64,000 bases of DNA from Alphaproteobacteria bacterium (GCA_028285305.1 JANQPV010000067.1:1-64000), one strand, 5' to 3'; shown: positions 1,709-35,870, counted from the first letter of the stretch. Notes: generated from the letters alone by a model not told the origin. Numbers and translations are program-made.

Positions 1709-1709
1709 A

Positions 1710-6460: not shown

Positions 6461-6476
6461 TCAAACACTTAGTTGA
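6461..6476. promoter_or_regulatory. candidate operator, TCAAAC-ACTT-AGTTGA
   Basis: One copy of the island-wide palindrome, centred between the divergent acyl-CoA ligase and flavin split-barrel genes, 60-90 bases from each start. The right half is a perfect AGTTGA. Confidence 0.6.
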
Positions 6477-6536
6477 TTTTTGGCAAGTCCGGATTTAGTC
6501 AAAGCAATCCGATAGATCAGAAACGAGGCGAAGACT

Positions 6537-6989
6537 ATGGCGTACAGCAGGAGTCCAGTACAAATGGGCGATGAACAAGCATGGGAGTTCATCGGCAATC
6601 AGCGCGATATGCAAGTCGCCACCATTGGAAAAGACGGACGACCCCACCTTACAACAAATTGGTTTGCGATTGTAGACAACACTATCGTTTTCAATTCCTA
6701 TGAAAAATCGCAGAAAATAGTTAATCTCCACAAGGACAATCGAATCTCCGTATTGTTTTCTTCCGGCAAATACTACAACGAGTTGGTGGGCGTATCTTTG
6801 ACCGGCGAAGCTGAAATCATCGGAGAGCACAACCGTAAACTGCTTCTCCTGCGTGAAATCACGAAGCGGAACTCGGAGTACTCTGGGCAACCTGTCACCG
6901 ACGAACTCATAAGTGCTTTAGCTATCAAGCGAACATGCGTGGAGATTCACGTACAATCGATGTTTAGCTGGGACCATTCCTTACAATAG
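6537..6989 (+). CDS. pyridoxamine 5'-phosphate oxidase-like flavin split-barrel protein
   Basis: The 150-aa protein has the single-domain FMN-binding split-barrel pattern: MQVATIGKDGRPHLTTNWFA at residues 22-41, then a beta-rich core with SQKIVNLHKDNRISVLF. This superfamily binds FMN, F420 or haem and includes small reductases and PNP oxidases. Which cofactor applies cannot be read here, and genuine vitamin B6 synthesis is unlikely given the catabolic context. GAGGCGA upstream of the ATG is an acceptable ribosome site. Its 3' end overlaps the convergent tetR gene by 26 bases. The divergent promoter shared with the acyl-CoA ligase carries an island operator, so it is probably induced with the pathway. 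Confidence 0.8.
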   Translation: MAYSRSPVQMGDEQAWEFIGNQRDMQVATIGKDGRPHLTTNWFAIVDNTIVFNSYEKSQKIVNLHKDNRISVLFSSGKYYNELVGVSLTGEAEIIGEHNRKLLLLREITKRNSEYSGQPVTDELISALAIKRTCVEIHVQSMFSWDHSLQ

Positions 6990-7599
6990 CCAGACCATTG
7001 GACGAGATCATCCCATTGGCTATCAATTCGCGCATATCTTTCGCGGCGGCTAAGATGTCAGCATCTGACTCTGTCCAACGCAGTGGCGCCAATATCAGCG
7101 TGTTGATAAGACGAGTACAGATCGTAACATTCATTGTCTTGAACTGACCGCACGAAACTCCGCGCTCTATCACCGCTTGCAAATGCTCCGCAAACTCTAT
7201 TCTTTGTTGTTTGATCGTTTGGAACTGCGTTCTAGAGAAGATCTGTGAGAAATAGTCTTCTTCCTGATAGTAAACTCTGCATATCTCGCGATTCGTCGCC
7301 ACATGACGGACCGTTGTGTCGATCATGAAATGGAGCGCTTGCGTGGGGTCCTTAATTTGGGACGCCTTCTTTACCACAGCCAAGTGTTCGGCCACGGTCG
7401 ATACGCAGATTTCAAACAATATGTCACGCTTTGTCGAGAAATAGTAATATATGGTGGCTTTGTTCACTCCCGTCTCGTGCGAAAGTGCATCCATTGTAGT
7501 GCCGTGATAACTGAGCTCGGCGAAAAGGCTCACGGCGGTATCGACAATCAAACGGCGCCTGCTTTGCCTATGTGGATTCACAGGAATGCTCCGCTTCAC
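6964..7599 (-). CDS. TetR/AcrR family transcriptional regulator
   Basis: The protein is 211 aa. The N-terminal helix-turn-helix spans about residues 15-60, with TTMDALSHETGVNKATIYYYF as recognition region, followed by a helical ligand-binding domain. It is a clear sister of the TetR protein at 24477-25118: the two align across the whole length, including TR/SR-TQ-x(5)-Q, SxGQF and ILAPxRW near the C-terminus. It is divergent from the SDR gene at 7898 with a near-perfect palindrome (7768-7783) between them. It is therefore a good candidate repressor of the island regulon, relieved by a pathway intermediate, probably an acyl-CoA. That ligand is an inference. Confidence 0.9.
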   Translation of the reverse strand: MKRSIPVNPHRQSRRRLIVDTAVSLFAELSYHGTTMDALSHETGVNKATIYYYFSTKRDILFEICVSTVAEHLAVVKKASQIKDPTQALHFMIDTTVRHVATNREICRVYYQEEDYFSQIFSRTQFQTIKQQRIEFAEHLQAVIERGVSCGQFKTMNVTICTRLINTLILAPLRWTESDADILAAAKDMRELIANGMISSNGLAIVRNGPS

Positions 7600-7767
7600 T
7601 ATTTGTCTAACGATGGTATGTGTTCTGTTTAGGCTTCGAAAGCGTCATTTCGCCATCACCTAGTCGCCTCGGCGATTGACCACAATCCGTCAAGTACAAT
7701 TTGTCAACACGGATTAACTCTCATTCGTTTTCGTACATAAATGACAGGTTTGACGCACTTCTTAATA

Positions 7768-7783
7768 TCAACTATCCAGTTGA
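7768..7783. promoter_or_regulatory. candidate operator, TCAACT-ATCC-AGTTGA
   Basis: A perfect six-base inverted repeat with a four-base spacer, between the divergent tetR (starts 7599) and SDR (starts 7898) genes. Together with the copy at 18405 it defines the consensus. Confidence 0.68.
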
Positions 7784-7897
7784 ACTAATGTAAAGCTCAC
7801 AGGATGTCAAATCGACGAACAAATTCATCGATCGCGGAGTTCGATATACGCTGTTGCGATTAAGTCTTTGCACTGACTTGAATAAGGAGCTGTTGAC

Positions 7898-8704
7898 ATG
7901 GAAAACAAAGCGATCATCGTCACTGGTGCGGCCTCCGGAATCGGCAAGGCAACTGCATTGATGCTTGCAAACCGGGGCGCGAACGTGCTCGTGGCCGATA
8001 TCGATAATAATGGGGCACAGGAAGTAGCGTCCGCCGTCGCCAAAACAAAGGGCAGTGCAGAAGCTTTGGCGGTCGACGTTTCAAAAGAATCTGATATACG
8101 AACTATGGCGGAGTTCGTCTTCGACCGCTATGGCCGTTTGGACGGACTGGTGAACAATGCCGCGGATATTGCGTTGAGTTTTCATGATGCTGACATCGCA
8201 CGTACTCATATGTCAGTATGGGATCAAACCTACCAGACAAACCTAAGAGGTGCAGTTGTAGCATGCCAGCTGACCATTCCGCTTATGTTGAAATCACCCA
8301 CCAGCGCAATAGTCAATGTGTCCTCTATTCAAAGTTTGCTCGGCGATATGGAGCGCGCTGCTTATAGCGCCATGAAATCAGCATTGAATTCTTTATCGCG
8401 CTCGATCGCGACAGCATATGGCAAGAAAGGACTAAGGTGTAATACGGTCTGTCCAGGGCCGGTCATGTCGAGGGAACCTGAAAAGAGGTGGCCTGAGAAG
8501 ATAATTGCAGGGTTTCAGGAGCATATTCTAACGCCGGACATTGCGTGTCCTGAGGATACGGCTGAGATCATCTGCTTTCTTCTGTCAGATGGCGCTCGCT
8601 CGATTACCGGGCAGACAATTTCTGCAGACTGCGGCTTCTCATCTCACATGCACTTTCATCAGAGGGCGGTTCCTAGGAAGAACTTGTCCATTCAGGACTT
8701 GTAA
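7898..8704 (+). CDS. short-chain dehydrogenase/reductase
   Basis: This 268-aa classical SDR has the Rossmann motif TGAASGIG at residues 9-16, an acidic residue after beta-2 (VADID) that favours NAD over NADP, NNAAD near 86, and catalytic Ser...Tyr-x3-Lys (SSIQ, then YSAMK). The C-terminus runs past the usual GG-near-end pattern by about 25 residues. AAGGAG lies eight bases before the ATG. It likely oxidises a hydroxyl group of a pathway intermediate, perhaps a ring or side-chain hydroxyl made by one of the Rieske enzymes. The divergent operator at 7768 indicates control by the adjacent TetR. Confidence 0.88.
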   Translation: MENKAIIVTGAASGIGKATALMLANRGANVLVADIDNNGAQEVASAVAKTKGSAEALAVDVSKESDIRTMAEFVFDRYGRLDGLVNNAADIALSFHDADIARTHMSVWDQTYQTNLRGAVVACQLTIPLMLKSPTSAIVNVSSIQSLLGDMERAAYSAMKSALNSLSRSIATAYGKKGLRCNTVCPGPVMSREPEKRWPEKIIAGFQEHILTPDIACPEDTAEIICFLLSDGARSITGQTISADCGFSSHMHFHQRAVPRKNLSIQDL

Positions 8705-8732
8705 ACTCGACATCCCAGAATTTACTCGACAT

Positions 8733-9500: not shown

Positions 9501-9584
9501 TCTTCAACCTCCATAGAATTTTATGCCCATGCTGGTGGTGCGCGCTCAGGTCGCCCCCTCACAAGCAATAGTCTTCCACATTTG

Positions 9585-9600
9585 TTGACTAAATAGTTGA
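9585..9600. promoter_or_regulatory. candidate operator, TTGACT-AAAT-AGTTGA
   Basis: Island palindrome with a perfect right half and a four-of-six left half, between the divergent crotonase (9500) and KshA-like oxygenase (9697) genes. Confidence 0.55.
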
Positions 9601-9696
9601 ATTTTGCAATAAGTATGATCTACGATGAGCCGAAACAAGTCGTGACGGCTTGTAACCGATGACCGCCAGTACGGTCGAATGTGCAGGAATGATGAC

Positions 9697-10710
9697 ATGG
9701 GACTCATGAAGGGCTGGCCTTATACCGATTTTGCCACGGGATGGTACCAAATCGGGTATTCAAAAGAATTTGAAAACGGAACGATCCAGCCCGCAAAATG
9801 GTTTAATCAGGATTTGGTTATCTTTCGCACGGAATCTGGGGTGCTTGCGGCAATGGACGCTTATTGTCCGCATATGGGAGCTCACCTCGGTCACCGGGGA
9901 CAATTTGGTGGAAAGATCTGTGGGGAGAATATCCAGTGCCCTTGGCACGGATGGGAATGGAAGACTGACGGTACAAACGCACGCATCCCCTACAAAGACG
10001 ATGCCACTGTTAATGCACAGATCGAAACCAAACATATTCGCGAAGTCGACGGCATTGTATTGATGTGGTTTGACCACGAGGGCAAACCACCTTCCTATGA
10101 ATGGCCCGGCTTCCCTTACATCGGCGACAAGAGTGACTACTATCCTATCGATTGGACAGTAGACGGACCTCATCGAGTCAAACCGCAATTTCCAATGGAG
10201 AACAGTGCCGACCCCCATCATTTTCCGTATGTGCATGGGTCCGGAGTGGATGCTGAATTCACGGATTATGTTGTGAACGGACCTGAATGTGGAAACAAAA
10301 TGTATATGACTTTCGGCGCAGGAAAAGAGAGAACCTGGATGACGCCTGAGGGCCCAGTGGATGGAGAAATCGATAACTTCTTTTGGGGGGCCTCCCTGGG
10401 AATTGCACGCTTCAACATCAATGGTCGTGTCTGTATCCACCTCACTGTGCTAACGCCCATTGATGATGACTACTGTACTTTCTTCAGTACCGTAACACAC
10501 AACAGAGAACCTGGAGCAACAGGCGATGTGCCAGAAGGAATAGCGAAAAAGATGATGGAAGCGCAACACGTTCAGATACGAAACGACTTCCACATTTGGG
10601 CCAACATGATGTACAAAGTGCGGCCCATTTTCACCGGCGAAGCGGAGCAAACGCGTTACGCGTTCATCCGTAAACACTTTGATCAATTCTACCCCAATCC
10701 GGTTTACTAG
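9697..10710 (+). CDS. Rieske oxygenase, KshA-like (3-ketosteroid 9-alpha-hydroxylase type)
   Basis: The protein is 337 aa from the ATG at 9697, chosen because AGGAA lies about eight bases before it; an ATG at 9679 lacks a site. The Rieske cluster ligands are C57-x-H59 and C81-x2-H84, with an unusually long 21-residue spacer (15-17 is common). The iron site N169-x2-D172-x2-H175-x4-H180 is the arrangement of KshA and the sterol-modifying Rieske enzymes. Such enzymes hydroxylate a steroid nucleus, which in 3-ketosteroids opens ring B. Steroid is the best guess for the substrate, not proven. No reductase (KshB) is seen in the window, so electrons must come from elsewhere. Confidence 0.85.
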   Translation: MGLMKGWPYTDFATGWYQIGYSKEFENGTIQPAKWFNQDLVIFRTESGVLAAMDAYCPHMGAHLGHRGQFGGKICGENIQCPWHGWEWKTDGTNARIPYKDDATVNAQIETKHIREVDGIVLMWFDHEGKPPSYEWPGFPYIGDKSDYYPIDWTVDGPHRVKPQFPMENSADPHHFPYVHGSGVDAEFTDYVVNGPECGNKMYMTFGAGKERTWMTPEGPVDGEIDNFFWGASLGIARFNINGRVCIHLTVLTPIDDDYCTFFSTVTHNREPGATGDVPEGIAKKMMEAQHVQIRNDFHIWANMMYKVRPIFTGEAEQTRYAFIRKHFDQFYPNPVY

Positions 10711-11026
10711 TGAGGCAATGGCTGACTAAGTTGTTCGCCCAATAGTGATCGACCGTTTCTATCGGTATCGTAGCTCAAAGAATAGGATTGCCTTTTCCCC
10801 ACTGCAAGAGAGCAGGGTTGCGCAGGATGTAAGGTCTATATTGGCAGCCCTCTCCCACCCATTAACCAAAAAACACTGTGCAGCCAGAACTCAAATAGAC
10901 GGTTGAAGTTTCGGCACATTGTCGGGCGTCAAGGCATTTTGTCACCCAGTGCCAGACGAATCGATCGGTCAAAGTAGACGGCATACATGTAGTGTTGGTG
11001 GAAGAATTAGTCGAGGAGCATCACGT
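10711..11026. other. intergenic region holding the SDR promoter
   Basis: About 315 bases between two same-strand genes. It contains one operator copy (10891-10906), and GAGGAG at 11013-11018 serves the next gene. No small gene or clear terminator is visible. Confidence 0.5.
10891..10906. promoter_or_regulatory. candidate operator, TCAAAT-AGAC-GGTTGA
   Basis: Moderate match to the island palindrome, with the outer TCAA/TTGA conserved, about 120 bases before the SDR start. Confidence 0.45.
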
Positions 11027-11839
11027 ATGCTGAAAGAGTTCAGTGGAAAGACGGCCGTGATTACGGGAGCCGCTAGCGGCATAGGCTTAGCGCTGTGCGA
11101 TGCTGCTATTGAACGCGGTATGAACGTTGTCGCAGCAGATGTGAACGCCGAAGGGCTCCAGGCGTTGGAAAAGGTGTACTCGAACAAAGGAAGTCTTTCG
11201 ACCGCGTTGACCGATGTTTCTTATCTTCCTAGCGTCGCAGCCCTTTGTGAATTTGCTTATAAGGCACATGGTCAGGTACATTTGCTGTGCAACAATGCCG
11301 GCGTTGCTAGTTCAGGCCTTATCTGGCAGCACGGAGTCGATTTTTGGAAGTGGATCTTTGACGTGAATGTCATGGGCGTTATCCATGGGCTCAAGCAGTT
11401 CATTCCCGAGATGATCGCCCAGAACCAAGGAAGTGCGATCGTCAACACCGCCTCTATGGGGTGCCTGTTCTCTGCCGAAAGTATGGGTGCTTATGGAGCC
11501 AGCAAACACGCCGTTCTCGCGATCTCTGACTCCTTGAGAAAAGATCTTGAAGCGGAGAATGCGCCAATCAGCGTTTCACTTTTATGTCCGGGACCGGTCT
11601 GCACACCAATCTTTGATATGGACCGCAGCCCCAAAGACGTTGAAGCCAATACGGATCGCGAAGTTTGGGAGACATATCGTAATTTGATTGGTACGGGCAT
11701 CGATCCGGCCATTGTCGCGTCAAAGACGTTCGACGCTATAGCAAAGGGAGAATTCTGGGTACTGCCCAACCCGGAAATGATTGATCTCGCGATCGAGCGT
11801 CACAACCAAGTAATGCGCGCGGCTGGCCGCCTCGGATGA
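11027..11839 (+). CDS. short-chain dehydrogenase/reductase
   Basis: The protein is 270 aa from the ATG at 11027, which has GAGGAG eight bases upstream. The open frame extends to a TTG at 10919, but that leader is not SDR-like. Motifs are TGAASGIG near residue 13, NNAG near 91, Ser in TASMG, and YGASK as the active-site Tyr-x3-Lys. The segment after PGPV is long, as in SDRs acting on bulky alcohols. An operator copy lies in its upstream region, placing it in the island regulon. The exact substrate is unknown; with three SDRs in the island, several hydroxyl oxidations or ketone reductions are expected. Confidence 0.87.
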   Translation: MLKEFSGKTAVITGAASGIGLALCDAAIERGMNVVAADVNAEGLQALEKVYSNKGSLSTALTDVSYLPSVAALCEFAYKAHGQVHLLCNNAGVASSGLIWQHGVDFWKWIFDVNVMGVIHGLKQFIPEMIAQNQGSAIVNTASMGCLFSAESMGAYGASKHAVLAISDSLRKDLEAENAPISVSLLCPGPVCTPIFDMDRSPKDVEANTDREVWETYRNLIGTGIDPAIVASKTFDAIAKGEFWVLPNPEMIDLAIERHNQVMRAAGRLG

Positions 11840-11905
11840 ACGTGCAGAGCCCCGCAACTGATAGCCTAATCGCAGTCTTGTTTTTATAAGGTCAAGCTAA
11901 TGGCT

Positions 11906-14059
11906 TCATTTCCTTAGGCAAAATACTGCCTTCGAATATGCCTTAGCCCGAATATCGACGGGAGTCCCATTCAGGCGCGGCACTCCTGTCAACGGATCGA
12001 GATCGTCGCGAGACACCAATAAGTTCCTCGCCACTCCCCGGGCCTCTTGAAACTCTTCACCGCTGATCGGATCGAACAGCCTCGCCCCCCAGCCATGCTC
12101 CATGATCACCACTCCAGATCTGATTTTCTCCGAGACAACGACGGTGGCTTCTAGTTCACCGGCTGCCGATCTAACGGAAACGCGATCGCCATCAGTCAAA
12201 TTGCAATTTGCTGCATCCTCCGCGTTCATTTCGACTTGATCTCCGACTTCACCGGAGATCTTGGCCCCCGACGTCTCGGTCAGCCAGGAATTCATCATCT
12301 GCAACCGGCGTCGACTGATCAATTGGTAGGGAAACTGAGGATCACCCCGGTTGGCGCTTTCATCATGCAGGAGCCGTTCGAGCTCTTCCTTGAATTCCCG
12401 AGGACACGCCTCGATAGTCCGACCTCGTTTAGCGAGAGCCGCCTTTAAGTGGCCATAGCTCTTTTCTCCATAGATCAATCCGTGCGGATGGGAGACAATT
12501 TCGTCATACGTAAGAATGCCTTTGCGAGCCAAAACTCCCTGCGCGATCAATTTCGGGTCCGGTTCCAGGGCGCCGCCAAAGAGCGGTCTTCCGATTTCTT
12601 CTGCCAAATCCCGGAAGAACTCCCATTCATGACGGACACCAACCGGCGGTTCGACACACTGCGCGCTCGCTTGGACAAATGGTTCGTCAGAAACGCCGGC
12701 CGCTGAGACGTGCAATTCCTCCCGTTCTAGAAAGTGTACGCCTGGTATGATCCAGTGCGCGTGCCGATGGCTTTCTCGCTGCATAAGATCGATCGCCACA
12801 AGCAGTTCCAAGGATGCCAGCGCTTCGTCCAGTTGTTGACCTTGCGCTCCACTTGCCACAGGATTGCCGCCATTGATAAAGAGCGCGCGAATCTGCCCCT
12901 CTCCAGGCACTGTGATCTCGTCAGGCAGCTCGGCAAGGCTGTAGAAGCCCGCCACCGGAGGTCGGCCTTTCACTCTGCTCGGCTGGGTGTTCGGAAAGTT
13001 CGGCCCTTCGTCTAAGGTAAACAAATCAACCAAACTGCCGGGCAAAAACCTACCTCCAGGACGATCTGTACGTCCCGTAATAAGATTTAGTACGTGAGAT
13101 AACCATTCGGTTATCGCACCGTGACGCCCAATCGCCGGTCCAGTGCGAGCAACACACATAGCCGTGGACGCATGTGCGAATCGCTGAGCCACATCTCTTA
13201 TCGTTTCCGCTTCAACGCCGCAAACTCGGGACAAGTAATCGAGATCTGCTAATCCCGCTATGCGCCTTAGTTCGCGTACTCCGTTTGCTTGTTCGCAAGC
13301 CTCCGGTTTATCCCAGCCATGATCGAATATTGTTTGAACCATCCCCAGCAATAAGGCCCAGTCTTGTTCGGGTCGAACGGCGATGTGAAGCGTGGCCTTT
13401 TGAGCGCTTTCGCTCAGCCTCGGATCAACTATCATCAGTTCTGCACCTTGATCGACTGCTTTTAGAACTCGGCGCCAACCATCGGGAACCTTGCCGACCC
13501 AATTCATCCCGCTGATAGCGGGGTTGGTCCCAATGAAGAGGAAACATTTGCAAAGGTCGATATCTGGTTGAAGAGATGCCCAATTCGAACCGTACATTCG
13601 ATTAGCAACCAAATGAAGTGCGTTTTGATCGACAGACCCCACCCAAAAGCGCTGTCTCGAGCCGATCGCGTCGAAGAATGCCGATTGAAAAGTTGAGTTG
13701 GCAAAACCAAAACCTGCGGGATTTCCACTGTACACGCCGACTGAGTCCGGCCCTTGAGCGTCGATCAGCCTTTTAAGCTTTTTCCCTATCTCTTCAATCG
13801 CTTCTTCATACGAGGCTTTCACATATTTGCTGCCGTCACGCTTTAGAGGCGTACGAATGCGCACGGGATGGGACCTTACGTCATCGGCCATCTTTGCCTT
13901 GATACAAAAGTCTTTCCACGTGTACGGATTGCCCTTGTCTGGTTCAATATCCAAAATCTCATCCTCCGACACCGTCACTTTCAGCCCGCAGGCCTGTTCG
14001 CAGATGGAACAATATGTATATTTGGCTTGCGTCTTACGCTCCTTCGATACGGTATTCAT
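11906..14059 (-). CDS. molybdopterin-dependent oxidoreductase (formate dehydrogenase/DMSO reductase superfamily)
   Basis: The 717-aa protein begins with an iron-sulfur ligand set C-x2-C-x3-C followed about 30 residues later by a fourth Cys (DFCIKAK), binding one [4Fe-4S]. Molybdopterin domains follow (GTNPAISGMNWVG, RTGPAIGRHGAITEW, NGGNPVASGAQG) and then a C-terminal guanylate-binding beta barrel. No twin-arginine leader is seen, so it should act in the cytoplasm. No electron-transfer subunit gene lies next to it. The family covers formate dehydrogenases, hydroxylating and hydrating enzymes; the reaction cannot be named from sequence. Lying inside the island suggests an oxidation or hydroxylation of a pathway intermediate. 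Start is ATG at 14059; a GTG lies just before. Confidence 0.87.
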   Translation of the reverse strand: MNTVSKERKTQAKYTYCSICEQACGLKVTVSEDEILDIEPDKGNPYTWKDFCIKAKMADDVRSHPVRIRTPLKRDGSKYVKASYEEAIEEIGKKLKRLIDAQGPDSVGVYSGNPAGFGFANSTFQSAFFDAIGSRQRFWVGSVDQNALHLVANRMYGSNWASLQPDIDLCKCFLFIGTNPAISGMNWVGKVPDGWRRVLKAVDQGAELMIVDPRLSESAQKATLHIAVRPEQDWALLLGMVQTIFDHGWDKPEACEQANGVRELRRIAGLADLDYLSRVCGVEAETIRDVAQRFAHASTAMCVARTGPAIGRHGAITEWLSHVLNLITGRTDRPGGRFLPGSLVDLFTLDEGPNFPNTQPSRVKGRPPVAGFYSLAELPDEITVPGEGQIRALFINGGNPVASGAQGQQLDEALASLELLVAIDLMQRESHRHAHWIIPGVHFLEREELHVSAAGVSDEPFVQASAQCVEPPVGVRHEWEFFRDLAEEIGRPLFGGALEPDPKLIAQGVLARKGILTYDEIVSHPHGLIYGEKSYGHLKAALAKRGRTIEACPREFKEELERLLHDESANRGDPQFPYQLISRRRLQMMNSWLTETSGAKISGEVGDQVEMNAEDAANCNLTDGDRVSVRSAAGELEATVVVSEKIRSGVVIMEHGWGARLFDPISGEEFQEARGVARNLLVSRDDLDPLTGVPRLNGTPVDIRAKAYSKAVFCLRK

Positions 14060-14366
14060 CACCTTCCCTTAATTGTTCATTTGGCGCCTTTGGTCGGTTC
14101 TGGCTAGCGCCACAGAGCCATCTCGCTTTGACCTTCCACAACTCACATAGCAATGAACTTTTTCACCCAATCGATTGACCCGAAGCACGCCCTAATTGCC
14201 AGAGCCTGCAAGAGCATTCCTGTCATTACTCGGAGTTAATCCGAGTTAGAAATGCAAGAACACTAAGTCCCGAATTCACGATGCCCAGATGCTGACTTCA
14301 ACAGTGACTACAAACGACGAGTCAGGCTACCGCGCGATGGTCGAGTGCAGATCGTGGTAACTAGAA

Positions 14367-14448: not shown

Positions 14449-14450
14449 GC

Positions 14451-16712
14451 TCAATTGGAGAACATGTCTGTGGGACGAACCGTCAACTGCAATATGATTG
14501 CTCTAGGCCTGTTCGTCGCCGACGTTATCTCAGTTCCGAGTGTGCTATTGTTAGACACGGTTGGAAATATTTCATTGTTTAGATTGCGACCGATCACGGC
14601 CAACTCCCAACCATTGGTATCGTCGTATAAGGCGCCACCGGCGTTCACCATGAAGTACCCATCTTCCCACAGATTGGGCGGGCCTGCGGACAACTGAGTG
14701 AAGTACTCGCTCGAATAGGCCGCATCTGTCGAGACTCTAAACCGCAAATCGGTGTTCGGCATTGATCGATCCAAAGAAACTCCGAAATTTGCAGTCCAGT
14801 CAGGAGCCTGCACAATTTGTTCTCCCGTGAGATCCTGGAAGTTGCCTCCAACGCAGCCGGTAGCAGGAGTTTGTCCAAGATAGCACGGCGCTTGACGGAA
14901 ATCCGTATACCGAGCTCTATTGTAATTGAGCGCTGCGTTGAAGGTTAGACCTTCGACCTGCGGCGGTGTCCATAGCGTTTCAAGTTCGATGCCTTGAACA
15001 CGGGCAGCGCCAGCGTTCGATGTCGAGATGGCATTTATCGTAGGGTCAAACGAACTAACCTGCAATCCTGAGTAATTATATCGGTAGACCGTTGCATTTG
15101 CTCTAACGGTCCGATCAAACCAAGTGGACTTCAGGCCAATCTCGCCACCTTCAGCAAGCTCCTGATCAAAGTTCTGATCACCAGAGCCGCCGGTAGCAGT
15201 GTTGAAGCTACCAGATTTAAAGCCTTCTTTATACGCACCATACAGTGTTAGATCGCTAGTAGGACGCCACGTTATTGTGAATTCAGGGGATACATTGTCA
15301 AAGGTGCGCTCGTCGGGCGTAAAAGGAATGGGGCCAACAACCGGGCCAAACGCAAACGCATCGACTTCCTTCTTTTCCTTGGTATATCGAAGACCGCCCG
15401 CTATCTCCACGGTATCCGAAACGTCCGCTATTAGCTGTCCAAACGTCGAGTAGGCAACTCCATTAACGTTGTATCCGGAGCATATGAATGTGCCAAAAAA
15501 TACCGGGCAGGGCCGATCAACGGCGAAGTTGTCTTCGAAATACACGCCACCCACGAAGTTGAGAGGTCCATCAAAACCAGTTGCAAAACGAATTTCTTGA
15601 GAAACCGAGCGGTAGCTTGGTTGATTGGAAGCTGTCACGGAGTTGGCAGGAATGTGAGGACCGGCAGTTCGGACAAACTCCTGAAAATATTCTTGATCAG
15701 TTTGGTAATAACCAGTGATTGACGTGATGTTTAACTTTTCAATGGGGTTGAAATCTAATCCCAATGTGGAAAGGAAAGTTGATTGCTCCCAGAAGAATTC
15801 ACCATCTCTAAAGGAAGGATCAATACCCTCAAACGAAGAAGCCACCGGCGGCCCAGACACAAACGTCTCATTCGGTTCACAGTCGTCTAATGGTTCTTCC
15901 AAAGACCCCGGACCGCCAGTTGTCACATCGCAGTTTATCCTCTGAGCAGCAACTGTTGCGTCAGAATCCACGTCTGAGTATGACACTTTGAGGTTTGCAT
16001 TGAATGCTTCCGAAGGATCGAATTGCAAAGTCAGGCGACCGAACAACTCCCTTGATGCTTCTGCGTTGTCGTCACCCGTGGCGACATTCTCAAAAGGCCC
16101 TTCTTGATCGGTGATGAAGAAAACGCCCCGGTATCCAAATGAGTCGCTCAGCGGACCAGAGACGATGATTTCGCCAAATTTTTCCTTGGCATTGAACTCA
16201 TACCCCCCGCGCCCTTGAACGAAAAACTCATCCGTCGGCTGCTTAGTCTTCAAAGAGATGATTCCCCCCGGACTGTTTTTGCCAAAAAAGAGAGCCTGTG
16301 GCCCCTTCAACACCTCAACCTGCTCTAGATCATATTGACCCACTCGCAATACGTTTCCGTTGCTGACTGCCATGCCATCAACGTTGATCGAAACGGCTTG
16401 GTCCAAGGTTTGGTTCAGTGCAGAACTCCCAACTCCGCGCAAACTGATTAAGCCAGACTGACCAGCAGCTTGATCATCGATAAACAAACCAACAACGGCG
16501 GTCGATAGATCCTCCAGACCATCAATACCCCGTCGTTCAATTTCCTCATCGGAAAGCGCGGTTACAGTGACCGGCACCTGTTGCAATCCCTCATCACGCT
16601 TACGCGCCGTTACCACAATTTCGTCGATCTGAGCGAAAGCGTCGACAGCAATAAGAGTTGATACCCCCAATGCAATCACCGACCATCTTGAAAAACTGCG
16701 AGATGAATTCAT
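14451..16712 (-). CDS. TonB-dependent outer-membrane receptor
   Basis: The 753-aa protein has a cleavable signal peptide (residues 1 to about 27, ending DAFA), then a TonB box (DEIVVTARK). A plug domain with VPVTVTALSDEEI and LRGVG follows, and then a long beta barrel ending in an aromatic-rich region. Sequence style matches the large sphingomonad/caulobacter receptor family often placed beside catabolic genes for hydrophobic compounds. It probably imports the island's substrate across the outer membrane, energised by TonB-ExbBD. An iron siderophore is the alternative, but no siderophore genes are near. An operator copy lies about 115 bases upstream, consistent with co-induction with the pathway. 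Confidence 0.93.
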   Translation of the reverse strand: MNSSRSFSRWSVIALGVSTLIAVDAFAQIDEIVVTARKRDEGLQQVPVTVTALSDEEIERRGIDGLEDLSTAVVGLFIDDQAAGQSGLISLRGVGSSALNQTLDQAVSINVDGMAVSNGNVLRVGQYDLEQVEVLKGPQALFFGKNSPGGIISLKTKQPTDEFFVQGRGGYEFNAKEKFGEIIVSGPLSDSFGYRGVFFITDQEGPFENVATGDDNAEASRELFGRLTLQFDPSEAFNANLKVSYSDVDSDATVAAQRINCDVTTGGPGSLEEPLDDCEPNETFVSGPPVASSFEGIDPSFRDGEFFWEQSTFLSTLGLDFNPIEKLNITSITGYYQTDQEYFQEFVRTAGPHIPANSVTASNQPSYRSVSQEIRFATGFDGPLNFVGGVYFEDNFAVDRPCPVFFGTFICSGYNVNGVAYSTFGQLIADVSDTVEIAGGLRYTKEKKEVDAFAFGPVVGPIPFTPDERTFDNVSPEFTITWRPTSDLTLYGAYKEGFKSGSFNTATGGSGDQNFDQELAEGGEIGLKSTWFDRTVRANATVYRYNYSGLQVSSFDPTINAISTSNAGAARVQGIELETLWTPPQVEGLTFNAALNYNRARYTDFRQAPCYLGQTPATGCVGGNFQDLTGEQIVQAPDWTANFGVSLDRSMPNTDLRFRVSTDAAYSSEYFTQLSAGPPNLWEDGYFMVNAGGALYDDTNGWELAVIGRNLNNEIFPTVSNNSTLGTEITSATNRPRAIILQLTVRPTDMFSN

Positions 16713-16825: not shown

Positions 16826-16841
16826 TCAACTAGTAGTTTGA
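16826..16841. promoter_or_regulatory. candidate operator, TCAACT-AGTA-GTTTGA
   Basis: Perfect left half of the island palindrome and four of six in the right half, about 115 bases before the TonB receptor start. Confidence 0.5.
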
Positions 16842-17139: not shown

Positions 17140-18303
17140 TCACATGCTGCGCGCGATAATCAGCTTCATGATTTCGTTCGTGCCACCGTAAATTCGAGAC
17201 ACGCGTGCGTCCCGATACATTCCCGAAATCGGGTACTCATTAATGTATCCGTACCCCCCAAAAAGCTGCAGACATTTATCAATGATTTCTCCTTGGAGCT
17301 CTGAAAGCCAGTATTTGGCTTTCGCAGCGGTGACGGCATCCAGATCATCCGAGAGATGACGCTTCACGCAGGCGTCCACGAATGCTCGAGCTGCAGTCGC
17401 TTTGGCAGCGCAATCGGCCAACACGAATTGCGTATTCTGAAAATCAAAAATCGGCTGACCGAATGCCTTGCGTTCTTTCACGTAGTTGGTTGTTTCACGA
17501 ATGGCACGATCGATCATCGCCATCGCCTCCAAAGCAACAATCAATCTCTCTTGGTTCAGATTAGTCATCAAGTGCGCAAAACCCTGACCCTCCGCCCCTC
17601 CCAACAGATGATCGGTAGGCACACGTACATCTTCAAAAAAAAGTTCAGCTGTTGAATGAGCTTCCAAACCCATCTTATCCAGCTTGCGACCGCGAGAAAA
17701 ACCAGGCGAGTCGGCCTCAACAAAGAATAGAGATACGGAAGATTTATCTATTTCTGTTCTTCCTTCGACCCGACAGGCGACCATGAGGATGTCGGCCACG
17801 TAGCCCAACGTCGTGAATGTCTTCTGACCGTTGATAATATAGTTGTTCCCATCGCGGACCGCGGTCGTTTTTATTCCACGAAGGTCAGACCCCGTGTTCG
17901 GTTCGGACATGGCGATCGCGCCAATCCATTCCCCGGCCGCTAATTTAGGAATCCACTCCCGCTTCTGCGCTTCGGTCCCGAGACTGAACAAGTAAGGACC
18001 GAAGACGGCGTTCGGAACGCATAAGACAAATTGGTGGACGCCACACAGGCCGAAACTCTCGATAATCGCAGCTTCGTAGGCAAAACTGGCACCACCGCCT
18101 CCATACTCCTCCGGAGCGCTTGCCATTAGAAGACCTGCTTCACCGGCCTTCCGCCAAATGCTCCGTGGAATTTCTCCCTCTCTCCGCCATTCCTCTGTAT
18201 GCGGTGCACATTCCTTTTCGGCAAACCTGTCTACAGCGGATCGGAATATGCGCAAATTCTCGTCGTAGTAGTCCGGGATCACATAAGTGTTTGATTCCGA
18301 CAT
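17140..18303 (-). CDS. acyl-CoA dehydrogenase, long-chain (LCAD) type
   Basis: The 387-aa, full-length FAD acyl-CoA dehydrogenase contains AIAMSEPNTGSDLRGIKT at the flavin/substrate region, ERKAFGQPIFDFQNTQF, LFGGYGYINEYP, and a C-terminal IYGGTNEIMK. The last motif has Gly where medium-chain enzymes carry the catalytic Glu. This is the pattern of long-chain and isovaleryl-type enzymes, whose base sits in an earlier helix; here an Arg-Glu-Thr-Thr-Asn-Tyr stretch occupies that place. LCADs favour long or branched chains, fitting the racemase-like neighbour. It is divergent from the crotonase at 18534 with a perfect operator between. Confidence 0.92.
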   Translation of the reverse strand: MSESNTYVIPDYYDENLRIFRSAVDRFAEKECAPHTEEWRREGEIPRSIWRKAGEAGLLMASAPEEYGGGGASFAYEAAIIESFGLCGVHQFVLCVPNAVFGPYLFSLGTEAQKREWIPKLAAGEWIGAIAMSEPNTGSDLRGIKTTAVRDGNNYIINGQKTFTTLGYVADILMVACRVEGRTEIDKSSVSLFFVEADSPGFSRGRKLDKMGLEAHSTAELFFEDVRVPTDHLLGGAEGQGFAHLMTNLNQERLIVALEAMAMIDRAIRETTNYVKERKAFGQPIFDFQNTQFVLADCAAKATAARAFVDACVKRHLSDDLDAVTAAKAKYWLSELQGEIIDKCLQLFGGYGYINEYPISGMYRDARVSRIYGGTNEIMKLIIARSM

Positions 18304-18404: not shown

Positions 18405-18420
18405 TCAACTATCTAGTTGA
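18405..18420. promoter_or_regulatory. candidate operator, TCAACT-ATCT-AGTTGA
   Basis: Perfect six-base inverted repeat, between divergent acyl-CoA dehydrogenase (18303) and crotonase (18534) genes, nearly identical to the copy beside the first tetR gene. Confidence 0.68.
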
Positions 18421-18533: not shown

Positions 18534-19370
18534 ATGGCAGTATCGAGGAGACCGATGGTAGAAGTCGTAGTTGAGAGAAAGGGTCCAGTGCTGATTTGTA
18601 CACTGAACCGGCCCGAAAACAATAACAGCATCACTGCGGGGATATTCAAGGACTTGTACGAAAACTGGGTTGAAGCAGACAATGATCCAACTTGCCGTGC
18701 AATCCTCACAAACAACACTGGCGCGAACTTCTGCGTAGGCGCCGAAAGCGGAAATTTCGAAGCATGGACCCAGAAATCGATGCAAGCTGTCTTCGAGTCA
18801 GAGTATGAAGGCAAACAAGGGCTGCCAAAACTGGAGGATGTCGATGCTCAACTAGATTCATTAGGAATGAACCGTTGGGCTTGGTTGGTCAGCCAAATAC
18901 GAACGCCAATGATTGCTGCTATCACCGGAATTGCGGCGGGAGGCGGGCTTGCTTTGGCTTTGCTCCATCATTTTCGGATAGCGGACAGTACGTGCAAATT
19001 GACAACTGCGTTTGTCCGTCTGGGACTGAGTTTTGAACTTGGAATGTCCCAGCTCTTGCCGCGGTTGGTGGGAAGCCAAAGGGCCCTGGACATTTCGTTG
19101 ACCGGCCGCGTCGTTGAAGCCGAGGAAGCTCTCGACATTGGCCTGATTGACCGAATGACGAATCCGGACGATCTAGCGCAGTCGGCCTATTCCTTCGCTG
19201 AACTTATTGCTGGCCATTCCCCTCTCGCAGTTCGCGCTACCATGGACGCAATTCTCTCTACACGTAACGAAGACTTGAGACTCGCCATGGAATCGGAATA
19301 TCGCCGCCAGCAAGTATTGTGGGACTCTGAGGAGTTTAAGAGCCGTGCGAGAAAGCTCATGCAACGCTGA
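18534..19370 (+). CDS. enoyl-CoA hydratase/isomerase family protein
   Basis: The 278-aa crotonase has the oxyanion-hole segments GANFCVGA (near 62) and ITGIAAGGGLALALL (near 130), then AFVRLGLSFELGMSQLLPRLVG. Both positions that hold catalytic Glu in hydratases are replaced, so an isomerase or other crotonase reaction is as likely as hydration. ATG at 18534 opens the longest frame. A second ATG at 18555 has GAGGAG four bases away and could be the true start. It leads a probable operon with the crotonase at 19554 and the hot-dog protein at 20418 (gaps of 183 and 15 bases). Transcribed from the operator-bearing divergent region. Confidence 0.85.
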   Translation: MAVSRRPMVEVVVERKGPVLICTLNRPENNNSITAGIFKDLYENWVEADNDPTCRAILTNNTGANFCVGAESGNFEAWTQKSMQAVFESEYEGKQGLPKLEDVDAQLDSLGMNRWAWLVSQIRTPMIAAITGIAAGGGLALALLHHFRIADSTCKLTTAFVRLGLSFELGMSQLLPRLVGSQRALDISLTGRVVEAEEALDIGLIDRMTNPDDLAQSAYSFAELIAGHSPLAVRATMDAILSTRNEDLRLAMESEYRRQQVLWDSEEFKSRARKLMQR

Positions 19371-19553
19371 ACCGGAGCCCAATCTCATGCAGATTCTGGT
19401 TCCATTGAACAATGAGCGTTGCCGTTCGACTAATGATCTGTCCCGGGGATCCGCCCACAGATATAAACGACAGCCAAACTCAATCCACCAAAATTGCCGC
19501 TCAAGGCCGTATTAGATCGCCAGAACATCCAGCCCGTCGACACGGAGAAAACA

Positions 19554-20402
19554 ATGCCCGATACCATCTTATATCAGCAACCCGCTCCCCACGTCACTCG
19601 TCTCGTTCTCAATCGACCGAACAAGGGCAATGCTCAGACCAATGACCTCCTATATGAGCTCGACGAGGCGTTTATGAAGGCATCTCGAGACCCGGAAACT
19701 CGAACCATCATACTGGCTGGTAACGGCAAGCACTTTTCGACGGGCCATGATCTGGCTGAATTCGACCCGATGCTTTCCACGGTGAGTCCACGCGGCCCGT
19801 GGGGCGGATATGATCAACCTGCACAAGAAGGCTATATGGCATTCGAGGAGGAGGCTTACTTTGGATTATGCTGGCGCTGGCGAAACATACCCAAACCAAT
19901 AATTGCTGAAGTTAAAGGGCGCGTTATAGCGGGCGGATTAATGCTGATGTGGGTTTGCGATCTGATCGTAGCCGATGAGGAAACAACTTTCAGCGATCCG
20001 GTGGTTGCAAATGGGGTGAATGGCGTTGAGTACTTCGCGCACCCTTGGGAGCTCGGTCCCAGGAAGGCAAAAGAAGTGCTATTCACCGGCCGTGCTGTTA
20101 CCGCCAAGGCGGCTGCCCAACTCGGGATGGTCAACCGTGTGGTTCCCGGACAAGACCTCGAAAGGGAAACTCTCTCACTCGCAATCGAGATCGCAGATCA
20201 ACCCGCAATGGGCTTAAAGCTCGCCAAGATGGCGGTCAACCAATCTCAAGACGCCCAAGGGTTTTGGGTCGCCCTTCGCTCCGCCATGGGCTTGCAACAC
20301 CTCGCCCATGCCCAACATTGGGCGAACCACGCTTCTTCCGCGCCGCCCGACGCACTCGAGACCATGGCGCCGATACTTAGGCGCCCTCCTCTGCCCGAAT
20401 AG
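19554..20402 (+). CDS. enoyl-CoA hydratase family protein
   Basis: The protein is 282 aa from the ATG at 19554, with GGAG upstream; the frame continues back to a TTG at 19494. Crotonase motifs are GKHFSTGHDLAEF near 60 and KGRVIAGGLMLMWVCDLI near 120. The following FSDPVVANGVNGVEYFAHPWELGPRKA block belongs to a subgroup common in actinobacterial and sphingomonad catabolic clusters. The hydratase Glu pair is not present (Leu and Val/Asn at those places), so hydration is uncertain. It lies 15 bases before the hot-dog gene and is probably cotranscribed with it. Confidence 0.85.
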   Translation: MPDTILYQQPAPHVTRLVLNRPNKGNAQTNDLLYELDEAFMKASRDPETRTIILAGNGKHFSTGHDLAEFDPMLSTVSPRGPWGGYDQPAQEGYMAFEEEAYFGLCWRWRNIPKPIIAEVKGRVIAGGLMLMWVCDLIVADEETTFSDPVVANGVNGVEYFAHPWELGPRKAKEVLFTGRAVTAKAAAQLGMVNRVVPGQDLERETLSLAIEIADQPAMGLKLAKMAVNQSQDAQGFWVALRSAMGLQHLAHAQHWANHASSAPPDALETMAPILRRPPLPE

Positions 20403-20417
20403 CGCAGGCGAGAACCG

Positions 20418-21314
20418 ATGGAAACGAGCGTGATGCAAGTGATTGGAAACGAAGAGCGAATACTTAGAGAATTGCGTGAAGCCATTCCCATCATGATGTC
20501 CTCTTGGGAACCTGTGGATCCCTATTCAGTACACCAATGGTGCCAAGTCTTCGACATACGAAACGACCGATATGTGCGCCGCAGAGAAATACCTGGAGCC
20601 ATGCTGCATAGTTGGACCATGCCGGGCTACCGTGAAACATATCCGGAGGGTGACGTAGTGGACCCTCTCCGCGCTTCAGCTCGCGCCTTATCCTCGCGCG
20701 GCTATGTGGGGACAATGGCCGTGAGGTTACAACAATCGTACCGTGCTGTGATCAACTACGGCGACCGATTGCGTCGGCGGGCAAGAATTGAAAGCATCAG
20801 TCCGCTCAAGGATACGACCGTCGGAAAAGGATATTTTGTAACTGAAGCATCCGATACATTATCTGAACACGGAGTAGTTGGTTCAACGAAACTCACCCTT
20901 TTTGTGTTCAAACCAAACGCTCAACAGAAACAGACTAGTGGAAGCTTGTCCGCTGAAGCGCATTGCGCTCCAACACTGACTCAAGACCTGACAACACGCT
21001 TTATCGTCGCGGCATCCATGGCCACTCGAGACTTCGAAGATGTGCATCTAGATCCCGACAGCGCGCGTTCAAAGGGCGGAGAAAACGTTTACGTGAATAT
21101 CATGACAACCTTGAGCTTGATTCAAAAAGCGACAGAAGCTGCCGTGGGCGAAGGCAATAGAATTCAATCGGTCGATGTGAGCTTACTCTCTCCTGCCTAT
21201 CCCGGCGACATGATTGAGTTCTACGTTACGGCCGAGGCGCCCAACCGCGCGTTAATTCAAGCACAGCTTTCCAACCACATGCACGCAAAAGCAACTGTTC
21301 AGTTTTCCAATTAA
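20418..21314 (+). CDS. double hot-dog fold (MaoC/FAS1-dehydratase-like) protein
   Basis: This 298-aa protein is best explained as two hot-dog domains. The C-terminal half carries the diagnostic DVSLLSPAYPGDMIEFYVTAE strand-turn-strand; the N-terminal half carries REIPGAMLHSWTMPGY and a QSYRAVINYGDRL strand. MaoC-type enzymes hydrate enoyl-CoA to 3-hydroxyacyl-CoA. A plain D-x4-H catalytic pair was not found, so activity may be altered or may need a partner. Since the two crotonases upstream lack the hydratase Glu pair, this protein may be the pathway's real hydratase; that is inference. No signal peptide or membrane segment. Confidence 0.7.
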   Translation: METSVMQVIGNEERILRELREAIPIMMSSWEPVDPYSVHQWCQVFDIRNDRYVRRREIPGAMLHSWTMPGYRETYPEGDVVDPLRASARALSSRGYVGTMAVRLQQSYRAVINYGDRLRRRARIESISPLKDTTVGKGYFVTEASDTLSEHGVVGSTKLTLFVFKPNAQQKQTSGSLSAEAHCAPTLTQDLTTRFIVAASMATRDFEDVHLDPDSARSKGGENVYVNIMTTLSLIQKATEAAVGEGNRIQSVDVSLLSPAYPGDMIEFYVTAEAPNRALIQAQLSNHMHAKATVQFSN

Positions 21315-21377
21315 AGAAAATTGGAAAGTGCTTACCATTACGGCGCCGCACCCATCTCTCAACAGATTTACACCCTG

Positions 21378-22181
21378 CTAAACAATCGTAAGTCCGCCAT
21401 CAACCGTTACTTCCGAGCCCGTCATAAACTTGGACGCGCCCGATGCTAGGAATGTGATCACGCCGCTGATGTCGTCAACTTCCCCCCATCTGGCCAGGGG
21501 TGTTGATGCGACCACCATCTCGCTCGCGGCCTCCTCTTCTGCCAAAACTCCGTTTTCCACCATCCGACTCTGAAAACTCCGTGCAAGATCGGTGTTCACG
21601 GCGCCAGGATGCACAGTGTTCACTCGAATATTGGTCCCTCCGCGCGCTAAATCCAGCGCGGCCGCCTTCGTCAGTAGGCGAACCGCCCCTTTCGAAGCAC
21701 AGTAGGCGGCGCTGAAATCTCCCGCCACCTGACCGTATATCGAGCAAATGTTGATGATAGATCCGCCATCCTTGCTATCGTTCGACGTCTTGGTCATAAG
21801 AGGGACGGCCGTCTGCATCCCGATGACCACGCTCTCGAAGTTGACATTCATTGATCTGCGAAAGTCATCCAATGATGTTTCCAAAAAATGTCCGCAGTGC
21901 ATGAAGCCCGCATTGTTTACGAGTACGTCAAGACGATTGTACTCCTTTTCAATCTCTGAAATTGCGAACGACCAATCCTTGCTCGAAGTCACGTCAAGCT
22001 CCAGGCCAATCACACTCCCACTTTCGGTATCAAGCGACTCGATTTCCTTAAAGAGGGTATCTGCATCTAAGTCGGCAGCAATCACTTTTGCTCCGCTATT
22101 TGCGAGCGCAGATGTTGCCGCAAGGCCAATGCCCCTTGCACTACCGGTGACCAAAGCTACTTTTCCCGTTAGATCAAACAT
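21378..22181 (-). CDS. short-chain dehydrogenase/reductase
   Basis: The protein is 267 aa from the ATG at 22181, which has GAGGAA six bases upstream; the frame reaches back to 22202. It is a classical SDR: TGSARGIG near 12, AADLD after beta-2 favouring NAD, NNAG near 90, catalytic Ser in ICSIYG and YCASK. The C-terminus ends VDGG, typical of beta-ketoacyl-reductase-like family members. It stands alone on the minus strand between the plus-strand crotonase operon and the aldehyde dehydrogenase. No island operator was found in its 130-base upstream gap, so it may be read through from the aldehyde dehydrogenase gene, which points the same way. Confidence 0.87.
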   Translation of the reverse strand: MFDLTGKVALVTGSARGIGLAATSALANSGAKVIAADLDADTLFKEIESLDTESGSVIGLELDVTSSKDWSFAISEIEKEYNRLDVLVNNAGFMHCGHFLETSLDDFRRSMNVNFESVVIGMQTAVPLMTKTSNDSKDGGSIINICSIYGQVAGDFSAAYCASKGAVRLLTKAAALDLARGGTNIRVNTVHPGAVNTDLARSFQSRMVENGVLAEEEAASEMVVASTPLARWGEVDDISGVITFLASGASKFMTGSEVTVDGGLTIV

Positions 22182-22311
22182 CTGTTCCTCTTTGCAAAGC
22201 ACTCTTTAAGGTGCGGCAAATCAATTCCAAACCTTGCCCTGGCACGCGACGCAATTGGCCACAGAAAATCGCAGTATGCCGACTAACACTGGTCATGATT
22301 TTTCCAGTCTT

Positions 22312-23793
22312 TTAAGACACAGCGATTTGAACAGCCTTCGAATGGGTCATATCGAAAATACCATCAAATCCGCCTTCGCGACCAAAGCCGCTGGACTTCA
22401 TTCCTCCGAACGGCAAATTCGCCGGGAATGTATGAGGTGAATTCACACAAACACATCCTGCCTCTATCGCGCGAGCCGTCCGATGCGCTCTACGCAAATC
22501 CTTCGTAAAGATATATGCGGACAAACCATACCTTGAGTTATTCGCTATGTTGACCGCTTGCTCATCCGACTTGAATGGAATGACTGAGAGCACGGGGCCA
22601 AATATTTCGTTTTGCGCCAACCAACCGTTCTCATCCACATCGACAAAAATGGCCGGCTCCACGAAATAGCCACTGGCAAAATCCCCATTCATACGTTGAC
22701 CGCCTCCCAGTAGCCTTCCATCTTTTCGCTTTTTGGCATCTTCGATTACATTCAGTATACGGTTACAATGAAACTCACTGATAATCGGCCCCATGAACGT
22801 GGACTCCTCCAGCGGATCCCCGACACTGAGTGTAGCCAAAGCGCCCCTCAACAACTCGCACACGGAATCATAGATGGTCTCCTGAACCAATAGTCTCGTT
22901 CCTGCAATACATGCCTGCCCACTTAGCGTAATGAGACTAATCTGCAGCGCGGTGGTCAGAGCTTGTTCAATATCCGCATCGTCGAAGATGATGCTTGCCG
23001 ATTTTCCTCCCAGCTCGAACGACAACGGCGTTAAGTTCCTTGACGCCGCGGACATGATAGAGCGCGCCGTTGCATCACCCCCTGTGAACGATATTTTATC
23101 AACCATCGGGTTAGAGACCAGAGCTTTCCCTGTCTCTCCGTCTCCCGGAATGATGTTCACCACACCGTCCGGCATACCCGCCTCAACACATATCTCACCA
23201 AATTTTAACACCGCCCAGGGCGCAAGATCGGAGGGTTTGACGACCACGGTGTTGCCAGCAGACAGCGCAGCTGCGAGCTTGAGGCCCATGAACGACATGG
23301 GTGCGTTAAACGCGACGAGAGCTGCCACCACCCCATACGGCTCTCGCGAGGCAAAGCCAAAAGTTTCGGTCCCAGAGGGTGGAACGCTGCCATCGAATTT
23401 GTCCGCCCAGCCCGCATAGTACCTAAACCACTCTGCTGGCGCATCCGAAGCGATCGACGGCCCAACGACAACCGGCGTACCATTATCTATGGCAGCCAAG
23501 TTTCCGAGGTCGTCGCGTCCCTGTTCCATCAGATCTCCGATCTTTAGCAGGATATTGCGGCGCTGCGAGCCTGGCATATCTCGCCAACCTGGAAATGCCT
23601 TCCTGGCTGCGATGAGAGCCTCTTCAACCTCTTTGGCGCCGGCAATACTAAATTCTTTTTGCACCGTTCCGGTTGAGGGATTTATGTGTTCACCGATTAG
23701 ATCAGTTACACGGCGCCGACCATTTATGAGCAACCCTCCATCCGGAAGAATAGTTTCGGCCAGCTGTTTATGTGCTTCCGTCTGTATCATCAT
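22312..23793 (-). CDS. NAD(P)-dependent aldehyde dehydrogenase
   Basis: The 493-aa, normal-length member of the ALDH superfamily has the cofactor-binding VVKPSDLAPWA and FTGGDATA, catalytic Glu in LELGGKSA, catalytic Cys in SGQACIAGTR, and a C-terminal NLPFGGMKSSGFGREGG. It oxidises an aldehyde, possibly CoA-independent, to the acid that the acyl-CoA ligase could then activate. AGAGGA lies ten bases before the ATG. An operator copy 54 bases upstream of the start places it in the regulon. Confidence 0.93.
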   Translation of the reverse strand: MMIQTEAHKQLAETILPDGGLLINGRRRVTDLIGEHINPSTGTVQKEFSIAGAKEVEEALIAARKAFPGWRDMPGSQRRNILLKIGDLMEQGRDDLGNLAAIDNGTPVVVGPSIASDAPAEWFRYYAGWADKFDGSVPPSGTETFGFASREPYGVVAALVAFNAPMSFMGLKLAAALSAGNTVVVKPSDLAPWAVLKFGEICVEAGMPDGVVNIIPGDGETGKALVSNPMVDKISFTGGDATARSIMSAASRNLTPLSFELGGKSASIIFDDADIEQALTTALQISLITLSGQACIAGTRLLVQETIYDSVCELLRGALATLSVGDPLEESTFMGPIISEFHCNRILNVIEDAKKRKDGRLLGGGQRMNGDFASGYFVEPAIFVDVDENGWLAQNEIFGPVLSVIPFKSDEQAVNIANNSRYGLSAYIFTKDLRRAHRTARAIEAGCVCVNSPHTFPANLPFGGMKSSGFGREGGFDGIFDMTHSKAVQIAVS

Positions 23794-23846
23794 GAATTAC
23801 ACATCCTCTTCGGGCCAAGAGAAATTGAACGCCCATTGCGTTATTG

Positions 23847-23862
23847 TCAAACAAATAGTTGA
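23847..23862. promoter_or_regulatory. candidate operator, TCAAAC-AAAT-AGTTGA
   Basis: Island palindrome with a perfect right half, 54 bases upstream of the aldehyde dehydrogenase start on the minus strand. Confidence 0.6.
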
Positions 23863-24357
23863 ATTTTTTTGGAGTTTCGTGTGATCGAGAAGCATAGAAC
23901 TCATCGCAATTACGAGGCAGGCATCGCACCGCAAAGACGAATTACGCTGCATGATTTCACCAAAGTTTCCACGCGAACAACCGCACAAGGGCTTCAAGAA
24001 AGAATCTCTAGACCAGCTCTAGCGAAGTGACCCCATTCTCAGCACACAGAGTCTCCTCACGGCACAGGATCGAATGCTTCGCGCGTCTAACGGTTCAAAT
24101 TCATCGAAAAAAACAGCCCGAAATCTGGCCAACGGAGCGATAAAGTACTTTCTCAATTCCGTCGCATCTTACCTGATCTTCTGACCAGTTTATGGGCTAG
24201 ACACCCCCTCGAAAGTTAGGTGTGCGAGAGATTGTGCACTCCGACCGCAAAATGCCCGCCTCGGTGCAGATCGGAGGCGGGCCAGGGAGGAAGGCAAAGC
24301 GAAAAAATGGAAAATTGCTCTACCCCGCAATCTCTCTAGTATCTTCGCGCAAAAAAT

Positions 24358-24373
24358 TCAACCAAATATTTGA
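24358..24373. promoter_or_regulatory. candidate operator, TCAACC-AAAT-ATTTGA
   Basis: Island palindrome about 105 bases before the second tetR gene. The downstream flank TTTTTGGCAA also follows the copy at 6461, extending the similarity. Confidence 0.55.
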
Positions 24374-35834: not shown

Positions 35835-35870
35835 TCCCCGTTCATCACACTGCTGAAGGATTGCAGCACA

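Follow-up and report, generated by a model that had tools for sequence, protein, structure and literature searches.

Which regulator reads the palindrome that recurs through this catabolic island, and which genes does it bring under common control? The island lies on a 64,000-nucleotide stretch from an Alphaproteobacteria bacterium (GCA_028285305.1, JANQPV010000067.1:1-64000; the whole stretch is referred to as the window and its genome as G000), and the palindrome is close to TCAACT-N4-AGTTGA. We consider it likely that TetR2, a TetR-family protein encoded in the island, represses a horizontally spread steroid catabolic regulon through the repeated palindrome and is probably released by a steroid-coenzyme A (CoA) thioester.

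The original prediction listed eight main copies of the palindrome, and all eight were recovered at their positions (Table 1), both by pattern match, with 0-2 mismatches to TCAACT-N4-AGTTGA, and as ranks 1-8 of a matrix scan. They were said to be intergenic, upstream of island genes and mostly in divergent promoters; all eight are indeed intergenic, and six lie between divergent genes (6461, 7768, 9585 and 18405, plus 23847 and 24358 within one common region), with 10891 and 16826 each upstream of a single gene. The distance from site to start codon is approximately 50-220 bp, and two divergent genes are often served by one site. The spacer had also been described as starting with A, which holds for all eight copies on the plus strand. 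This A is the seventh base of the half-site, where A7 pairs with T10 (T is present at position 10 in five of the eight main sites), and the motif is longer than first described: TCAAC(T/C)A-N2-T(G/A)GTTGA, a 16-bp palindrome that can be written TCAACYA-TA-TRGTTGA with A/T flanks. The fully symmetric form, TCAACTATATAGTTGA, is found unaltered at one site in G126 and at three in G229, two comparison genomes that together form a separate order in the genome set. Across the three genomes we gathered 42 sites, all of them outside called genes (for the other genomes, genes were called with a simple in-house program); base 4 of the motif never varies, and the flank from -6 to -1 is rich in A/T.

Counting loose matches gave weak enrichment, with 39 matches of up to three mismatches in the window versus 26 ± 5 in shuffles, and genome-wide counts of TCAACT-N4-AGTTGA with up to two mismatches equalled those of a reversed control pattern. 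Since mismatch counting of this kind is a weak test, we built matrices, one of them from 11 sites on G229 contig C41 without any window data. This independent matrix ranked the eight main sites first to eighth and 4224 ninth. At a score of at least 14 it gave seven window matches versus a mean of 0.24 in shuffles, and at a score of at least 13 nine matches, all intergenic and all within the 21-kb island (4000-25200). At the latter threshold the other 39 kb of the window gave no match, nor did a 400-kb sample drawn from ten further contigs, whose best score was 11.4; this sample represents about 7% of the genome, beyond which only pattern-based lists were scored. The enrichment at the island that had been anticipated from a genome-scale matrix scan was thus observed, against a background sample holding no comparable site. 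Among high-scoring matches off the island, eight of the ten examined fall inside open reading frames. One at C9:61622 was rejected as a regulon site and taken for an ArsR operator, because it lies between an ArsR gene and a glutathione S-transferase gene and the same pair with a similar site is found in G126. A weaker site, CCAGCTGTATAGTTGA, at G000:C9:249301 (L084:2301) follows a P450 gene and precedes a TonB receptor gene, and may mark a distant regulon member.

Two weaker copies had also been proposed, and only one of them stood. The copy at 4224 is credible because the G229 ortholog of the adjacent Rieske oxygenase gene (2969-4138) carries a strong, comparably placed site, 113 bp upstream. 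The copy at 14163 was rejected: it ranks twelfth, and its score of 8.8 on the G229 matrix is within the background range.

The operators are conserved together with the genes that they precede. A TetR profile search at E <= 1e-40 found matches in three of 385 genomes of the class (G000, G126 and G229), and none in the other genomes among these 385 and 398 of the phylum. Most island enzymes have orthologs of 60-87% identity in G126 and G229, some of 42-48%, and gene order and orientation differ. Nearly all orthologs of window genes in G229, and slightly over half of those in G126, have an operator ahead of the gene itself or of its operon. Sites accompany the orthologs of the KshA-like oxygenase and of the acyl-CoA dehydrogenase in both genomes; in G229 a site lies 103 bp upstream of the TonB-dependent receptor, and the divergent acyl-CoA ligase/PNPOx-like flavoprotein pair recurs, site included. 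Between G000 and G126, RpoB and RpoC share 79-80% identity, and the accessory TonB receptor (84%) and KshA-like oxygenase (78-87%) are as conserved as RNA polymerase, which points to horizontal transfer. These comparisons point to the island plus operators spreading horizontally as one unit. Mobility genes are found beside the island on the same contig, encoding an ArdC-like antirestriction protein, a ParB-like protein and a MobA/VirD2 relaxase (window 34938-40867). The contig resembles a plasmid or a mobilizable element that bears the catabolic island; a search of plasmid records found no close relative. As to taxonomic placement, the assembly yielded no 16S gene, but 7ye1, a Caulobacter structure, is by far the best solved relative of RpoB, so the organism is probably an alphaproteobacterium.

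A Pfam scan of island genes in the three genomes identified TetR proteins as the only DNA-binding regulators among the genes scanned. The window encodes two, TetR1 and TetR2, in which the TetR_N helix-turn-helix scores 53.7 and 53.0 bits, respectively (cut-off 24), and both carry the TetR_C_24 C-terminal domain. By position, each has a palindrome ahead of its own gene, 24358 before TetR2 and 7768 before TetR1. We attribute the operator to TetR2 on the evidence of G229, a fragmented assembly with 22 sites, where the TetR2 ortholog is the one TetR of this kind and TetR1 has no counterpart. Thus TetR2, rather than both TetRs equally, is the best-supported putative binder. Its orthologs in G126 and G229 are approximately 60% identical, with an invariant reading helix (NKGTLYYYYTSK). 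TetR1 lacks orthologs of this kind; its identity to the TetR2 orthologs is 41-43%, and as a query against the genome contigs it returned only distant TetRs. The predicted TetR2 model (pLDDT 85.9) consists entirely of helices, and its Foldseek list is filled by TetR structures. Those nearest to it are PfmR, AibR in complex with isovaleryl-CoA, KstR2 and FadR. Several of these structures contain acyl-CoA, and this neighbourhood suggests an acyl-CoA effector for TetR2.

The original prediction described a regulon of uptake (TonB receptor), activation (acyl-CoA ligase), oxygenation (two Rieske enzymes) and beta-oxidation, and an operator does precede genes of each class. The solved structure closest to the Rieske oxygenase at 9697-10710 is 3-ketosteroid 9alpha-hydroxylase (E 2e-23), and the closest solved relative of the acyl-CoA dehydrogenase at 587-1708 is Tcur3481, known as one of the chains that form a heteromeric acyl-CoA dehydrogenase acting on steroids. 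ChsH1 and ChsH2 together make up the cholesterol side-chain hydratase, one subunit each, and the two halves of the MaoC protein at 20418-21314 match ChsH1 and ChsH2, its sole solved relatives below E 1e-6; the protein resembles a fusion of subunits that are separate chains in the solved structures. Judged by best solved relatives, the island therefore contains KshA-like, heteromeric ChsE-like acyl-CoA dehydrogenase and ChsH1/ChsH2-like enzymes. Taken with the ligase, aldehyde dehydrogenase, short-chain dehydrogenases/reductases (SDRs), enoyl-CoA hydratases and TonB receptor, they make a side-chain-bearing steroid the most probable substrate, with other terpenoids as the alternative. The G229 operon orthologous to the genes at the contig start has operators. 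A formate-dehydrogenase-like molybdopterin enzyme (11906-14062) was excluded from the regulon because no credible site accompanies it. A strong copy also lies outside the window on contig C20, ahead of a kinase-like (EcKL/APH) gene whose G229 ortholog has two sites, and therefore the regulon extends past the window.

Table 1. Operator copies and candidate regulon genes in the window (positions counted from its first nucleotide)
Feature	Position	Strand	Context
Weak operator TCAACCGTTTAGTCGG	4224..4239		Upstream of Rieske oxygenase gene 2969-4138 (-); rank 9 in window with independent matrix
Operator TCAAACACTTAGTTGA	6461..6476		Between acyl-CoA ligase (-) and PNPOx-like flavoprotein (+)
Operator TCAACTATCCAGTTGA	7768..7783		Between TetR1 (-) and SDR (+)
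Operator TTGACTAAATAGTTGA	9585..9600		Between enoyl-CoA hydratase (-) and KshA-like Rieske oxygenase (+)
Operator TCAAATAGACGGTTGA	10891..10906		Upstream of SDR 11027-11839 (+)
Operator TCAACTAGTAGTTTGA	16826..16841		Upstream of TonB-dependent receptor (-)
Operator TCAACTATCTAGTTGA	18405..18420		Between acyl-CoA dehydrogenase (-) and enoyl-CoA hydratase operon (+)
Operator TCAAACAAATAGTTGA	23847..23862		Upstream of aldehyde dehydrogenase-SDR operon (-)
Operator TCAACCAAATATTTGA	24358..24373		Upstream of TetR2, autoregulatory position
TetR2	24477..25118	+	TetR_N and TetR_C_24 (Pfam); best candidate operator-binding repressor
TetR1	6964..7599	-	TetR2 paralog, 39% identical; possible second reader of the operator
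Acyl-CoA dehydrogenase pair (first truncated) and CoA-transferase III	1..2876	+	Contig start; any operator would lie past the contig edge
Acyl-CoA ligase (AMP-binding)	4740..6389	-	Regulon member
Rieske oxygenase with KshA_C domain	9697..10710	+	Regulon member; domain from Pfam
TonB-dependent receptor	14451..16712	-	Regulon member; 83-84% identity to G126 and G229 orthologs
Acyl-CoA dehydrogenase	17140..18303	-	Regulon member
Two enoyl-CoA hydratases and fused ChsH1/ChsH2-like MaoC hydratase	18534..21314	+	Operon
Aldehyde dehydrogenase and SDR	21378..23793	-	Regulon members

Several further features were observed. Ecdysteroid-kinase-like (EcKL/APH) genes are found near the regulon at L066:11107-12180, L044:31-1107 and L044:7310-8386, two of them directly behind operators. 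A truncated acyl-CoA dehydrogenase remnant lies beside an operator both at G000:C20:18620-18910 and at G229:C458:1667-1930, the two being 79% identical with the same altered tail. Homologs of the Olokun defence proteins OloB (597 bits) and OloA (288 bits) adjoin the island at window 30696-34207, near a DEAD-box helicase gene (26164-29478), and window 45678-57156 carries chemotaxis genes for CheB, a methyl-accepting chemotaxis protein and a CheA-like kinase of 991 amino acids that also has a globin domain.

These observations are consistent with a mechanism in which a TetR2 dimer would occupy each copy of the palindrome and keep the promoters of the regulon, covering steroid side chain and ring, shut, including that of its own gene. 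Steroid would enter through the regulated TonB receptor and be activated by the regulated acyl-CoA ligase, and a resulting CoA-thioester intermediate would free TetR2, so that all promoters open together. Some of our results weigh against this model. In G126 and G229, the genes for the TetR2 orthologs are not themselves immediately preceded by a strong operator, and the near-perfect site at 7768 adjoins TetR1. In G126 there is no strong site before the TonB receptor and one enoyl-CoA hydratase. Finally, promoter predictions near the sites did not exceed chance and lend no backing to the overlap with -10 and -35 elements that repression would entail.

The strongest competing explanation, which we regard as possible though doubtful, is that TetR1 and TetR2 both recognise these operators but respond to different pathway intermediates, so that derepression would proceed in stages. 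The paralogs have similar DNA-reading helices (NKATIYYYF and NKGTLYYYY), good sites adjoin both genes, and a second TetR is also present in G126. In addition, A at position 5 of the half-site is commoner in G000 (5/20) than in G126 and G229 combined (1/64), although the associated p = 0.0025 is optimistic because the half-sites of one palindrome are not independent. On the other hand, G229 has its 22 sites with one such TetR, and the second TetR of G126 is just 32-34% identical to TetR1. In a more elaborate and, in our view, unlikely version, the two proteins would compete for one operator set in response to different steroid-CoA signals, opening a mobile regulon stagewise, with the A-containing half-sites tuned to TetR1.

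It is improbable that the palindromes serve a regulator encoded elsewhere, such as a global fatty-acid type, PsrA-like TetR. The motif does resemble the operator of Pseudomonas PsrA, C/GAAAC-N2-4-GTTTG/C (PMC11233452), and a PsrA-like site, TCAAACAAGTGTTTGA, precedes another TetR gene on contig C21 and its G126 counterpart. However, the C21 site scores low on the G229 matrix (10.3), TetR2 and the operators co-occur in three genomes of two orders, and the sampled background DNA is devoid of sites. The identical TCAAACAAGTGTTTGA palindromes, just ahead of similar TetR genes at G000:C21:144893 (L068) and G126:C1:129715 (L073), probably belong to a separate PsrA-like, putatively autoregulated system.

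Slightly less probable again is that TetR2 (or TetR1) acts as an activator instead of a repressor. A few TetR proteins do act as activators; NCBIfam labels FasR as one, and the location of promoter elements with respect to the sites could not be fixed. Nevertheless, the closest fold or sequence relatives of known function (KstR2, FadR and PfmR) are repressors, and the proximity of the sites to start codons and their frequent sharing by divergent genes also argue for repression. That the palindromes are merely repeat or mobile-element sequence is hardly credible despite the relaxase, ParB and ArdC genes on the contig, since conservation is confined to the 16-mer, with flanks that are A/T-rich and otherwise dissimilar, and the sites stay at ortholog promoters despite different gene orders.

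With repression by TetR2 as the preferred reading, the outcome is a defined operator together with a named repressor candidate and a list of genes that recur in two orders. That operators are retained while the genes are reshuffled makes this a clear case of a regulon held together by its binding site rather than by gene order. The operator alone could flag steroid-catabolic genes in uncharacterised bacteria, as the C20 copy illustrates, and TetR2 with its promoters provides a candidate repressor/promoter pair for a possible steroid biosensor.

Among known systems, the operator matches none of the KstR2, EdcR, PsrA and Thermus TetR motifs checked, and a search of open-access papers for its letters and for TetRs sharing an operator yielded nothing relevant (subscription papers lay outside the search). 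PsrA, a fatty-acid type TetR, has the closest operator by letters, and TCAAAC half-sites are present here at 6461, 16826 and 23847. Unlike the PsrA operator, the consensus here is TCAAC[T/C]A, with C at position 5 in 77 of 84 half-sites, and the Vibrio PsrA model gives the two TetRs 24.4 and 23.7 bits (cut-off 300), reflecting weak N-terminal similarity. PfmR of Thermus thermophilus (3vpr), 28% identical, is the best solved sequence relative of both TetRs and the best fold relative of TetR2; its operator was not found in the literature examined. The operators of Thermus thermophilus FadR, an acyl-CoA-binding TetR (TTRNACYNRGTNYAA; PMC5597230), share an AACT/AGTT-like core with ours and differ in spacing and outer positions, while the Bacillus-type FadR model (NF053878) scores 56.2 and 47.6 bits versus a cut-off of 200. 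KstR2 of mycobacteria and rhodococci, with three reported sites of the motif AnCAAGnnCTTGnT (PMC3068626), is likewise a TetR whose palindromic operator recurs across the divergent promoters of a steroid catabolic cluster, and the TetR2 model superimposes on it (4w97) with a TM score of approximately 0.75-0.81. It differs in operator sequence and length, in its 22% identity and in the number of sites (three versus at least nine in this genome), and the island here is Gram-negative with a TonB receptor; the KstR2 core CAAGnnCTTG is found in none of the 42 sites, and the KstR family model (NF033703) scores 23.4 and 23.2 bits against a cut-off of 280. The estradiol TetR EdcR of Caenibius tardaugens (operator TnnCnnTACnAnTnGTAnnGnnA; PMC8700777) represses steroid genes in a Gram-negative bacterium, as proposed here for TetR2; its putative operators occur in several promoters, with a weaker copy at that of its own gene. 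Unlike EdcR, which carries TetR_C_11 and controls oestrogen genes, the TetRs described here carry TetR_C_24 and a different operator accompanies them. Since the KstR score is far below the cut-off, the C-terminal domain is not the one in EdcR and neither KstR2 nor EdcR has this operator, the present system would work like KstR/KstR2 and EdcR but is a member of neither.

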